Shown: one piece after another, positions 17,683-20,247 of the stretch
Layout of the letters: the number at the start of each line of letters is the position of its first letter
Numbering within the stretch: position 1 is the first letter of the stretch
Source: Pseudomonadota bacterium
GTDB taxonomy: Bacteria > Pseudomonadota > Alphaproteobacteria > Acetobacterales > Acetobacteraceae
Assembly: GCA_019352115.1 (NCBI GenBank)
Contig: JABBNW010000012.1
Span: forward strand, 1 to 40,439
Reading direction: 5' to 3'
Length of the DNA stretch: 40,439 nt
Program-made: the position numbers and the translations under genes
Notes under the pieces: generated by a model
Seen by the model: only the letters and a program-made list of their open reading frames with translations
What the model was told of the DNA's origin: nothing
Databases searched by the model: none

Positions 17683-18078
17683 TTGAGCGCCCCGCCCCTT
17701 GCGGGCTCCGATGCGGGCGCCGTGCGCCACGTCGGGATCGTCGATGACGATCCGGCGGTGCGCGACTCGCTGCACTTCCTGCTGGACGTCTCCGGCTACC
17801 CGGCGGCCACCTACGAATCGGCCGCGGATTTCGAGGCCCGCCGCGATCGGGCGGGCCTCGCCGGGTTGATCCTCGATCATCACATGCCGCTGGTGACCGG
17901 CCTCGAACTCGTGGCGCGGCTGCGCGCGGCGGGCGACGCGCTGCCGGTCCTGCTGATCACCGGCTCTCCCTCGCCGACCATCGCGGCGCAGGCGGCGGCG
18001 CTCGGGGTCGTGCGGACGGTGGAGAAGCCGCCGGCGGCAGACGAGCTCCTGGGCTTCGTCGCCTCCATCCTGGGCTGA
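17683..18078 (+). CDS. Single-domain response regulator (FixJ-like receiver)
   Basis: A 131-aa lone receiver: acidic cluster IVDDDPAVRDSL, phospho-acceptor aspartate in LILDHHMPLVTG, Thr/Ser in LITGSPS and Lys in VEKPPAADELL. The sequence (FLLDVSGYPAATYESAADF) resembles the receiver of FixJ/NarL-type regulators, but there is no output domain. It may act as a phosphate sink or by protein-protein contact. No kinase is adjacent. The TTG start is uncertain; a GTG at 17722 would remove 13 polar residues and still keep the domain intact. The upstream FixK/FNR-like box suggests oxygen-linked expression. Its 3' end overlaps the converging DUF6362-like frame. Confidence 0.82.
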   Translation: MSAPPLAGSDAGAVRHVGIVDDDPAVRDSLHFLLDVSGYPAATYESAADFEARRDRAGLAGLILDHHMPLVTGLELVARLRAAGDALPVLLITGSPSPTIAAQAAALGVVRTVEKPPAADELLGFVASILG

Positions 18079-18539
18079 ACTGTCACTCCGGCCGGGGGTC
18101 GGCCCAGGGCGGCGACGATGATCGCGATCCCGTCCTTGTGCCAGCGCTGGATCGCCTTGTGGTCGGCACCCAGGACGCCGCCCAACCGGCGCCAGGGGAA
18201 CAAATGCCGCTCCGTCACCGGGTGCACCAGGCTGCGGGCGCCGACGATGCGGCGCAGCACGTAGCGCTCGAGCGGAATATGCGCGATCCACCCGAGCGCC
18301 ACGTCCATCCGGGTGATCTTGGCGGCCGAGGGCACCGGCGGCCGCAACCGCCCCTCCCCCCAGCCATAACTTTCCGCGGCGCTGCGCACGATGTCGAGCG
18401 CGCTCGAGCGCATCCCGGTGGACCAACCGGAGGGCGGCAGGGCCAGCAGGGTCGATCCCGCCTCCTCCAGCCGCCAGATCACGTAGGCAGCGTCGATTTC
18501 GGGCAGGGTGGCACGGTCGGCGTCGAACATGGACTGCAT
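17880..18539 (-). CDS. DUF6362-like protein, 3' end possibly frameshifted
   Basis: A 219-aa frame whose first ~150 residues look like the DUF6362 group of small proteins found in alphaproteobacterial phage-like and island regions. It has AAYVIWRLEEAGSTLLALPPSGW, then ITRMDVALGWIAHIPLERYVLRRIVGARS and an HTH-like WRRLGGVLGADHKAIQRWHKDG. The function is unknown; the last segment reads like a DNA-binding helix-turn-helix. The final ~67 codons run antisense through the receiver gene and look unlike protein. A one-base deletion in the five-C run at 18094-18098 (as read on the minus strand) would end the protein at a TGA at 18083-18085, just outside the receiver gene. It follows the small HTH gene by 99 nt on the same strand. 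Confidence 0.6.
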   Translation of the reverse strand: MQSMFDADRATLPEIDAAYVIWRLEEAGSTLLALPPSGWSTGMRSSALDIVRSAAESYGWGEGRLRPPVPSAAKITRMDVALGWIAHIPLERYVLRRIVGARSLVHPVTERHLFPWRRLGGVLGADHKAIQRWHKDGIAIIVAALGRPPAGVTVQPRMEATKPRSSSAAGGFSTVRTTPSAAACAAMVGEGEPVISRTGSASPAARSRATSSRPVTSGM

Positions 18540-18638: not shown

Positions 18639-18929
18639 TCAGGGAACGAAGACAGGCAGCGGGTAGGGCACGTCCTCCAGGACGGTGCCCGCGGTGATGG
18701 CGCCCCAACTGTGCGGGTGGCCGGGCGGCAGCGGGTCGCGCTCGGGATCTTCGGGCGGTGGGACGAAGCCGGCGGGACGCGGAAACGCGCCGATGCGACG
18801 TCCGCGCTCGATCGCGGCCCAGCGGGTGACGCCGAACAGCGCGGCGATGGCGTCCCAATGGGCACCCTCCGCGCGGAGGCGGCGCAGCCGGGTATCCTGG
18901 GCGTCGGTCCACGGTAGTTTTTTGGGCAT
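18639..18929 (-). CDS. Small helix-turn-helix protein of unknown function
   Basis: A 96-aa protein. The N-terminal half, KKLPWTDAQDTRLRRLRAEG then HWDAIAALFGVTRWAAIERG, reads as a homeodomain/SANT-like or GcrA-like helix-turn-helix. The C-terminal half is Pro-rich (PPPEDPERDPLPPGHPHSW), ending VLEDVPYPLPVFVP. I do not recognise a named family. The start is placed at the MPKK methionine because upstream residues are arginine-rich and non-conserved in character. A perfect TTGACA -35 and AATAAC -10 lie about 45 bp further upstream. It probably forms a transcript with the DUF6362-like gene and is divergent from the XRE regulator, which may repress it. Confidence 0.7.
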   Translation of the reverse strand: MPKKLPWTDAQDTRLRRLRAEGAHWDAIAALFGVTRWAAIERGRRIGAFPRPAGFVPPPEDPERDPLPPGHPHSWGAITAGTVLEDVPYPLPVFVP

Positions 18930-18963: not shown

Positions 18964-19056
18964 ACTAACGCCGGTCTGTTATTCTCTCTGACGGTCGACT
19001 GTCAATAGTAATAACGTCTTTCGGGAATTTTTCTTGCCGGAGTTAGTCAGGCTGAC
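18964..19056. promoter_or_regulatory. Divergent control region with dyad operator and mirrored motifs
   Basis: For the minus-strand gene, TTGACA (19000-19005) and AATAAC (18978-18983) form a promoter with a 16-bp spacer. The dyad TGACGGTCGACTGTCA (18989-19004; 7 of 8 pairs match) covers its -35 and spacer. A second dyad with the same half-site, GTCAG-G-CTGAC, lies at 19046-19056, just before the xre ribosome site. The motif CCGG(A/C)GTTAGT also occurs once in each divergent leader (19037-19047 plus; 18964-18974 minus), mirrored around about 19005. The layout suits a repressor switch. Confidence 0.65.
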
Positions 19057-19071
19057 GTATGGAGGAGCATG

Positions 19072-19425
19072 ATGGAAATGCAGATCGAGATCGGCCGCCG
19101 GATTCGCACCGCCCGCCAGGAGCGTGGCCTGACCCAGGAGGCGCTGGCTGCCGCCATCGGCGTGTCGCGCAGTGCGGTGGCGCAGTGGGAAACCGGACGG
19201 GCCGGCCAGCTCACGACGCACCTGGCGGCGATCGCCAGTGCGCTGGAGGTCGGGGTGGAAGTCCTGATGCACGGGGCGGACAAGCGTGCCCCGGCGCAGG
19301 CAACGAGCGGGGACGAGTTGGCGCTGTTGCGGCTCTACCGGGAATGTACGGACGAGGACCGGCAGTTCCTGCTGCACACCGCGCGCCGGATGGCGCGGCT
19401 TGGCGCGCGGTCGGAAGCGGCCTGA
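19072..19425 (+). CDS. XRE-family transcriptional regulator
   Basis: A 117-aa protein with an N-terminal Cro/C1-type helix-turn-helix: IGRRIRTARQERGLTQEAL then AAAIGVSRSAVAQWETGR. A short helical C-terminal part follows (DELALLRLYRECTDEDRQFLLHTARRMARL) and may mediate dimerisation. It has no peptidase domain, so it is not a LexA-type cleavable repressor. The start is chosen among ATGs at 19069, 19072 and 19078 because GGAGG at 19061-19065 gives 6-nt spacing to 19072. It likely represses its own gene and the divergent HTH/DUF6362 pair via the TGAC/GTCA dyads between them. Confidence 0.88.
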   Translation: MEMQIEIGRRIRTARQERGLTQEALAAAIGVSRSAVAQWETGRAGQLTTHLAAIASALEVGVEVLMHGADKRAPAQATSGDELALLRLYRECTDEDRQFLLHTARRMARLGARSEAA

Positions 19426-19520: not shown

Positions 19521-19553
19521 GACTCTCACCCTTGCATGCCGGCTCCCCTTGCA

Positions 19554-19623
19554 TTCCAGCCCGGCGCCTTCCCGTCATGGCCGGCTCCGGGCCGGCCATG
19601 ACGGGAAGGCTTCGGGGCTGGAA
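19554..19623. repeat. 70-bp REP-like inverted repeat
   Basis: Inner arms of 20 bp (19566-19585 and 19591-19610, containing CCCGTCATGGCCGGC) are perfectly complementary around the loop TCCGG. After a 3/4-nt bulge, outer arms TTCCAGCCC (19554-19562) and GGGCTGGAA (19615-19623) also pair perfectly. Compensation on both sides of a bulge suggests a maintained structure. The sequence looks like the dispersed palindromic repeats of GC-rich alphaproteobacteria, but no second copy is in the window. Confidence 0.75.
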
Positions 19624-20247
19624 CTACCTAAGCCTCTTGGCGGGTTGATATTACCTGCGCGGCCCTTTGCAGCGAAGGCAAGGAGATCGGCATATCATTG
19701 AAAACAAAGCGATCCTGGCCGCAGATGACGGCACCATGCGTCAGGATCGGCCTCTCTCGCTGGCGATGGGGGTCCCGGCGCCGGCGTTGCCGAACCTACG
19801 CGCGCTGGCGGCTCGCGCGGCAACCGGCGCATTTCCGGCCGCGGGCGCACCGGTTCGCCTAAACAAGTGGCAGGTGCCGCTCCCGGACCGTGCGATTGCT
19901 GCGTGCGACGCGGAGCATGACCGCATCGGCAGAAACGACCGCAAGCTTTTGACGGAAAGCGGCCGTCTGGCATTTCGCTAATCAATTTTTAGGAGTGCGA
20001 TCGTAGTCTTGCCATGGGAGCCGCATTTCATACTCCGCACCCCTCGCCCGGAGACGCTCGATCATGCAGCGCCGTCCCGATGCCTTTGCCGCCGGCCGGT
20101 CGCCCCTTCTGCCCGCGACTTTCCTGCTCCGGCCGCGGCCCGTCCGCCACAGGCAAAAAAAACTCTCGCGACTCCGGGGCAATCAGCTACGTTTGCGCCC
20201 ATCTTGCATGAAGGCGCGAGGTGTTTCCCTCATACACGGAGCCGCCG

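Follow-up and report, generated by a model that had tools for sequence, protein, structure and literature searches.

In the OR regions of phages lambda, P22 and 434, a repressor gene and an early operon diverge from three similar palindromes that overlap both promoters, and the cI mRNA of lambda is leaderless. The particles of the gene transfer agent (GTA) RcGTA are not known to have a tail sheath. In Caulobacter, as described in PMC9632790, RogA represses gafYZ, and the inverted repeats bound by RogA at the gafYZ promoter have the form GGAA-N4-TTCC (PMC9632790, PMC11150451). The same two papers portray GafZ as an antiterminating protein with a sigma-factor-like HTH and a single target, which carries an element between -35 and -10; elements in this position are described for both Q and GafZ (PMC11150451). 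XRE factors that repress a GTA activator have also been reported (PMC10688885). According to the account in PMC9662315, GTAs are recognized by a genome that is endogenized, often across several loci, by mostly vertical inheritance with host-congruent trees, and by particles that carry random host DNA, cannot hold their own genome and deliver DNA.

The locus described here resembles these systems in several respects. It lies in the window, the whole stretch of 40,439 nucleotides that was analysed, which corresponds to contig C234 in an Acetobacteraceae draft genome of 4.76 Mb. The features of its divergent control region are as follows.

19069 to 19425, plus strand: xre, an open reading frame for an XRE protein of 118 residues (HTH_3, 1.8e-14)
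18639 to 18929, minus strand: HTH gene, 96 residues, an open reading frame read from the ATG at 18929
17880 to 18539, minus strand: DUF6362 gene, an open reading frame of 219 residues from the ATG at 18539 (PF19889, 6.4e-11; phrog_6836, 1.8e-18)
18978 to 18992, no strand: predicted operator O1, GTTATTCTCTCTGAC, from a pattern scan, its position conserved in relatives
19001 to 19015, no strand: predicted operator O2, GTCAATAGTAATAAC, 23 bp from O1
19042 to 19056, no strand: predicted operator O3, GTTAGTCAGGCTGAC, 41 bp from O2
18977 to 19005, minus strand: predicted HTH promoter, with -35 TTGACA (19005-19000), a 17-bp spacer and -10 ATAACA (18982-18977)
19058 to 19063, plus strand: predicted xre -10, TATGGA, one base after O3

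The HTH gene and then the DUF6362 gene stand opposite xre, both on the minus strand. The only family found in the XRE protein is the HTH; a C-terminal peptidase domain was not found, nor did Pfam detect the S24 domain responsible for the RecA-stimulated self-cleavage of CI, and damage-triggered self-cleavage of XRE is therefore not expected. The P22 c2 and 434 repressors are among its best matches to sequences of solved structures. The HTH protein combines a predicted GcrA-like DNA-binding fold with a conserved tail, PAGHP.SWG...PYPxPVF, and Pfam assigns to it and its neighbor no family other than DUF6362. The homologous part of the DUF6362 protein is confined to 18078-18539; about 65 extra codons run on to 17880, antisense through a convergent response-regulator gene (17683-18078), and the stretch 17880-18078 is possibly the left junction of the xre-HTH-DUF6362 triad. 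On the other side, 3' of xre, there is a near-perfect, very strong hairpin (19553-19625); the folding energy of 19530-19635 is -70.8 kcal/mol (z -7.7). Its core occurs at one place in the genome, hence it does not form a repeat family there.

Between xre and the HTH gene the repeated unit is a 15-bp palindrome, GTYA-N7-TRAC, in three perfect copies. It was found by reading and by scanning the regions upstream of xre homologues from 29 further genomes. Three perfect 15-mers are far beyond chance: shuffles of the region contain 0.013 on average and one at most, and the 40-kb window has no fourth perfect copy. In relatives the 15-mers often occur in tandem, 22-23 bp apart. A perfect site is present in 71 of 78 genome loci, a phased tandem pair in 52 and a phased triple in 29 (two of the 80 loci, with less than 150 bp upstream, were left out); the seven loci that lack a perfect site are L081, L086, L096, L119, L130, L137 and L142, and the phased pair is absent from 26. 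The corresponding numbers for the viral collection are 65, 34 and 18 of 66 loci, counted without 14 loci with more distant XREs (L280-L293), ten of which have no site and four of which (L286, L290, L291, L292) have one imperfect site each. In 100 dinucleotide shuffles of either set no pair and no triple arose, and at least one perfect site was obtained in 0.6 loci on average. The sets used are not independent, as the G genomes overlap with the named genome loci (for example G036 with L072), and some of the viral records are nearly identical. A pattern-free count also returned GTTA-N7-TAAC as the commonest inverted repeat with 4-bp arms (29 of 78 loci, whereas none of 30 shuffles gave more than 6). 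A search of the 4.76-Mb genome for the tandem O1-O2 pattern gave this place alone, and the reversed control gave none. The distance between O2 and O3 is 41 bp in the window, 42 and 41 bp in two loci of the same genus, and 22-24 bp in many other relatives, such that the longer spacing adds nearly two helical turns. O1-O3 are thus three copies of one putative repressor-binding site, conserved across the Acetobacteraceae.

An earlier note on this DNA had described the region by other elements, two dyads and a pair of leader motifs, arranged almost symmetrically about position 19005.

18989 to 19004, no strand: 16-bp dyad, TGACGGTCGACTGTCA, with 7 of 8 pairs matching
19046 to 19056, no strand: second dyad, GTCAGGCTGAC, string present
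18964 to 18974, no strand: leader motif on the HTH side, ACTAACGCCGG, string present
19037 to 19047, no strand: leader motif on the xre side, CCGGAGTTAGT, string present

All the strings quoted there are present in the sequence, and the idea that this region controls divergent genes through more than one XRE operator looks right, with three GTYA-N7-TRAC sites. Taken alone, however, the earlier motifs are weak: among 300 dinucleotide shuffles of the 201-bp region, 16-bp dyads in which 7 or all 8 pairs match arose in 8%, and 11-nt inverted repeats with one mismatch or none in 6%. The near-symmetry disappears when the centers of the sites are considered, which lie at 18985, 19008 and 19049. The 16-bp dyad is not a unit of its own; it consists of the right half of O1 and the left half of O2. 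Its TGAC-N8-GTCA form is found in 5 of 80 genome loci and 6 of 66 viral loci, and the TGAC-N7-GTCA form in 12 of 78 loci; these forms are rare because the center of the dyad varies with an operator spacing of 22 or 23 bp. The second dyad does exist near the presumed ribosome site of xre but lies inside O3.

The leader motif pair, CCGG(A/C)GTTAGT, had been offered as a second operator or a shared RNA element. The two strings, 62 nt apart, are indeed complementary at 10 of 11 positions, a kind of repeat that the shuffles also yield at the frequency given above. The conservation check, in which both strands of the 260 bp before the xre match were searched, located the pair in none of the 80 genome loci and none of the 66 viral loci, and it is therefore not a conserved second operator or RNA element. 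Its only conserved part is GTTAG, the left half of O3; the copy on the HTH side is a lone TAAC half-site together with one arm of a small predicted leader hairpin and is not conserved. A shared RNA element was rejected, as the motif has no Rfam match and folding is weak, neither leader being more than slightly more stable than its shuffles (z -1.5 and +0.2). Such an element is also unlikely because the copy on the xre side is upstream of the predicted transcription start. Taken together, either interpretation of the leader pair is extremely improbable.

A consensus promoter scan called no promoter, and both promoters were therefore inferred by reading. The predicted -35 of the HTH promoter lies in O2 and its -10 overlaps O1. 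On the xre side, an O3-like site accompanied by an in-frame start is present in 106 loci, the other 40 of 146 having no such site, and in 28 of the 106 O3 is 12-14 nt from the start codon. In these 28 loci TA follows two bases after O3 in 24 and TAnnnT in 16, whereas GGAG, GAGG or AGGA precedes the start codon in only 4. In the window the gap is 12 nt and holds TATGGA as well as GGAGGAG (19061-19067), which could be the ribosome site of xre. The spacing pattern suggests that the xre transcript is probably leaderless, starting at or near the ATG at 19069, with O3 in the promoter. In several Rhodopila-like loci (among L067-L076 and L097-L109) a further operator-like site stands 16-19 bp ahead of the xre match, and its right half holds a -10-like TATACT or TAAACT; autorepression would be arranged differently there, with a start that is once more nearly leaderless.

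The gene arrangement is shared by many relatives. DUF6362 matches were obtained in 70 of the 80 named XRE loci, all of them divergent from XRE, and HTH matches in 67. The HTH gene occurs in 35 of 147 sampled genomes (E 1e-8), including the one studied here, and the large terminase gene (TerL) in 40. With cut-offs of 1e-8 for HTH and 1e-100 for the terminase, both genes are present in 30 genomes, HTH only in 5, TerL only in 10 and neither in 102 (p 1e-17); one of the five HTH-only genomes (G024) has a TerL fragment below the cut-off (2.4e-33), and in another (G060) a terminase-like start was seen by eye. With XRE at the looser threshold of 1e-12, 32 genomes have both, 19 XRE only, 8 the terminase only and 88 neither. 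In locus L237 and genome G080 the order is xre|HTH-DUF6362-..-TerL, and the genes downstream include terminase, portal, scaffold and capsid. The terminase of L237 has one homologue in the genome studied here, on contig C159, where it is followed by portal, scaffold and capsid genes and lies beside dnaQ-coaE-aroE (names by eye). The tail sheath is encoded at the edge of contig C27. On C159 and C27 the cluster genes that could be observed have open frames, and the two contigs may be one cluster split by assembly.

The order in L237 and G080, and the presence of TerL within the fetched flanks (up to 6 kb) of 14 of the 80 loci, would fit a reading in which HTH and/or DUF6362 are small-terminase or packaging proteins and XRE represses the head of a packaging operon. 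Yet TerL lies on a contig other than that of the triad in the genome studied here and 224 kb from XRE on one contig in G066; it has a promoter element of its own, and the models of HTH and DUF6362 resemble transcription factors. We regard a packaging operon as improbable.

The promoter element upstream of the terminase reads CTTGCCCA-N2-CGCCCC(A/G)...GTATA. The pattern CTTGCCCA-N4-CCCCR-N8-TA, searched over about 132 Mb (listed sizes), occurs at 20 exact places in 18 of 30 genomes, and the reversed control occurs once. Nineteen of these places are about 35-720 bp upstream of the terminase match and on its strand; the remaining one, in G015, is about 1.5 kb past the terminase end and, judged by position, inside the cluster. 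This specificity suffices to locate the cluster by a search of whole genomes. When up to 3 mismatches in 15 positions were allowed and the best match within 900 bp was taken, 25 of the 30 genomes had the element, and one of the five without it, G015, has it nearer TerL. Conservation extends over the spacer between -35 and -10. In all 25 the TA of the -10 stands at the same distance, and the A located eight bases past the -10, close to where transcription is expected to begin, is invariant. An ATGATGG-like sequence is conserved just after the -10 (L294, 6220-6246, and 24 further cases) and might act as a pause signal or open a small leaderless ORF. Direct action of XRE at this promoter was rejected: a perfect XRE site is present in the TerL upstream region of only 1 of 30 genomes (G066), and direct XRE control of the cluster is therefore not general.

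Structure models of the two divergent proteins were compared with known folds. The model of DUF6362 (154 residues, 18078-18539, pLDDT 81) has Q21 in the first five rows, with Z 8.0-8.9 over residues 13-154, rmsd 4.0-4.8, 109-122 aligned residues and 7-9% identity. Region 4 of the sigma factor WhiG, at Z 8.0, is formally tied with Q21, and other sigma factors match at Z 5.5-7.5; a Z such as that of Q21 can reflect helices arranged in a common way. Foldseek E-values were 0.2-0.9, and by itself Foldseek found nothing significant for DUF6362 (E 0.9). In the HTH model (pLDDT 88) the first row is the DNA-binding domain of GcrA (Z 7.5, rmsd 2.0, 48 residues aligned with 33% identity), although other Myb-like rows tie with it; we attribute the matches beyond GcrA (spliceosome Myb domains, LSD1 and others, Z 6-7.5) to the common Myb/HTH fold. 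The models suggest that DUF6362 most resembles Q21 and HTH resembles GcrA, neither of them decisively. DUF6362 homologues were also encountered on plasmids. The 55-kb Rhodovastum atsumiense record NZ_OW485608.1, apparently a phage-plasmid, encodes one (41%, 3e-22; L405, 5971-6435) after a run of genes with a DnaB-like helicase and before HNH, terminase, portal and capsid genes. This is the place of a Q-type late regulator, which supports a role in late-gene regulation. A second plasmid match is from Azospirillum thermophilum (6e-4). A plasmid or phage origin, sought through direct matches, was rejected: the 50,697 phage records contain no match to DUF6362, and neither they nor 72,556 plasmids contain a match to HTH.

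We consider it likely that a lambda-OR-like tripartite XRE operator controls a domesticated, GTA-like element through HTH-DUF6362. The operators and their conservation, the triad, its co-occurrence with the cluster and the dedicated promoter element are computed features; protein-DNA binding, repression, activation, antitermination and particle production are what we infer. XRE dimers would bind to O1, O2 and O3. At O1 and O2 they would cover the divergent HTH-DUF6362 promoter and keep the operon off; at O3, beside the -10 of xre, they would limit the transcription of xre itself. Once repression is lifted, the GcrA-like HTH protein and the Q21-like DUF6362 protein would act in trans on one dedicated promoter, which precedes the terminase-portal-capsid-contractile tail cluster elsewhere in the genome. 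DUF6362 may load between the -35 and -10 of the cluster promoter as an antiterminator. The proposed cascade would thus consist of XRE as the off-switch, HTH as the activator and DUF6362 as the antiterminator, and the triad probably serves as the switch that keeps a domesticated phage-like cluster off.

What the cluster is can be judged from its content and inheritance. In G080 it encodes a sheath (phrog_23) and baseplate proteins, and Pfam assigned 23 families to 34 proteins chosen from the cluster region, some of them encoded by flanking host genes; no integrase or replication family was found among these 34, and the PHROG comparison speaks for the 25 families listed out of 66. Its structural genes share about 35-79% identity with those of G056 and G066 over most of the cluster. 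Thirty genomes were selected for the presence of both XRE and TerL, and all 30 have a single terminase at E 1e-60; G071 and G073 carry a second, 34% TerL. Terminase distances follow rpoB distances (Mantel r 0.54, p 0.0005; 28 of the 30 genomes, since G039 and G087 have no rpoB match), with r 0.22 (p 0.03) for XRE and rpoB and r 0.40 (p 0.0005) for XRE and TerL. The TerL and rpoB trees have only 4 of 25 splits in common, with rpoB fragmented in several drafts. The same response regulator is found beside TerL in 4 of the 30 genomes, from four genera (1.5-kb flanks). The genome of the element is spread over several loci, as in the GTAs described, both in the draft genome studied here (triad on C234, TerL on C159, sheath on C27) and in G066.

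An ordinary temperate phage would explain part of these data. In that case XRE would be a lysogeny repressor and the window would contain a remnant of an immunity region, whose operators are kept by inertia or for superinfection immunity. The same gene pair and operators are present in IMG/VR records, which may be predicted proviruses, and TerL was found in all 11 viral records that were looked up. The kinship of XRE with P22 c2 and 434 repressors and the position of the DUF6362 homologue, which a phage-like plasmid carries amid replication and late genes, also agree with a phage, as do solo triads between host genes in the window and in G046 and the running of the DUF6362 frame of the window into the neighbor gene. 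An ordinary phage is less easily reconciled with the single terminase in all 30 genomes, the Pfam result on integrase and replication families, the lack of HTH and DUF6362 matches in the phage records, the correlation of TerL with rpoB and the open cluster genes on C159 and C27. We consider a temperate-phage immunity region unlikely, though by no means negligible.

The cluster is most likely a domesticated prophage or GTA-like element. A domesticated, GTA-like state is somewhat more likely than an ordinary prophage because the terminase is present in a single copy, the loci lie on different contigs, no integrase was found, TerL distances follow those of rpoB, structural genes are held in common at 35-79% identity, and the same response regulator adjoins TerL in 4 of 30 genomes. 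Counter-evidence to domestication comes from the 4 of 25 common splits, an AAA ATPase gene in some triads, the IMG/VR records and a triad site that is not conserved. PrkA adjoins xre only in two loci, of 93-94% identity, and the site is therefore not conserved beyond near relatives. The AAA ATPase-like gene (RepA-like by eye) lies between HTH and DUF6362 in L295 (8336-9565), L122 (3788-5074) and L252 (4092-5906) and may be a leftover phage replication gene. In G046 (L077, 5057-6330) a solo triad like that of the window lies between host genes (amidase and sdh-like by eye), and no terminase was found in this genome at 1e-20.

It is conceivable, if something short of an even prospect, that the cluster represents an unrecognized contractile-tailed GTA lineage of the Acetobacteraceae, regulated by an XRE/three-operator switch, a GcrA-like activator and a Q21-like antiterminator. 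The switch of such a GTA could lie far from the structural genes, and the RogA-GafYZ logic would have been invented a second time with different proteins. If the cluster is a GTA, GTAs extend to contractile tails and to the family of the acetic acid bacteria, with the same control logic arising from different proteins. Independently of this, an unexplained motif pair has become a defined operator, a likely master switch can be named for a phage-derived cluster whose terminase is present in 40 of 147 sampled genomes, DUF6362 gains a testable role in antitermination, and the terminase-promoter pattern provides a means to find the cluster in whole genomes.

The titles and abstracts of open-licence papers yielded no description of this switch or of an Acetobacteraceae GTA, and no literature record of DUF6362 was found among open-licence papers. 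The Sphagnum virome study (PMC12142844), in the parts available, reports Acetobacteraceae phage-like contigs with P2/Mu-like baseplate domains and no integrase or replication module, and its authors name GTAs as one outcome for cryptic phages. Those regions are possibly the same elements as the present cluster; a switch or operator does not figure in that part of the description. The best-ranked TerL in the 50,697 phage records is that of Acetobacter phage phiAO1 (LC644971; 46% identity), which according to PMC8566455 stems from mitomycin-induced myovirus-like particles and has no integrase. It was rejected as the same element: the G080 proteins match it by TerL and two weak matches only, and neither HTH nor DUF6362 has a match in it better than E 0.1.

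As in the OR regions of lambda, P22 and 434, three related operators, similar palindromes about two helical turns apart, lie between a divergent repressor gene and an early operon and overlap both predicted promoters, and the predicted xre mRNA is leaderless like that of lambda cI. Unlike those repressors, XRE has only 118 residues and no cleavable C-terminal domain of the CI (S24) type; the divergent HTH gene is outside the Cro/HTH_3 family, and the O2-O3 spacing varies. With regard to RcGTA-like GTAs (Rhodogtaviriformidae), the cluster has a phrog_23 sheath, which RcGTA is not known to have, and HTH and DUF6362 match no Pfam family except DUF6362. The sheath is also a difference from CcGTA, as are operators of the form GTYA-N7-TRAC instead of the GGAA-N4-TTCC described for RogA and what are apparently other proteins. 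With RogA-GafYZ, as far as the published accounts cited above describe it, the locus would share a repressor of a two-gene activator operon and activators directed at a single promoter of the structural cluster, in which an element lies between -35 and -10. DUF6362 differs from phage 21 Q in sequence (7-9% identity) and is tied with sigma region 4 by Z, and its antitermination is a predicted one; it may resemble Q in the nearly whole-length match of its model (Z 8.0-8.9) and in the late-type promoter with a conserved spacer element that precedes the terminase.
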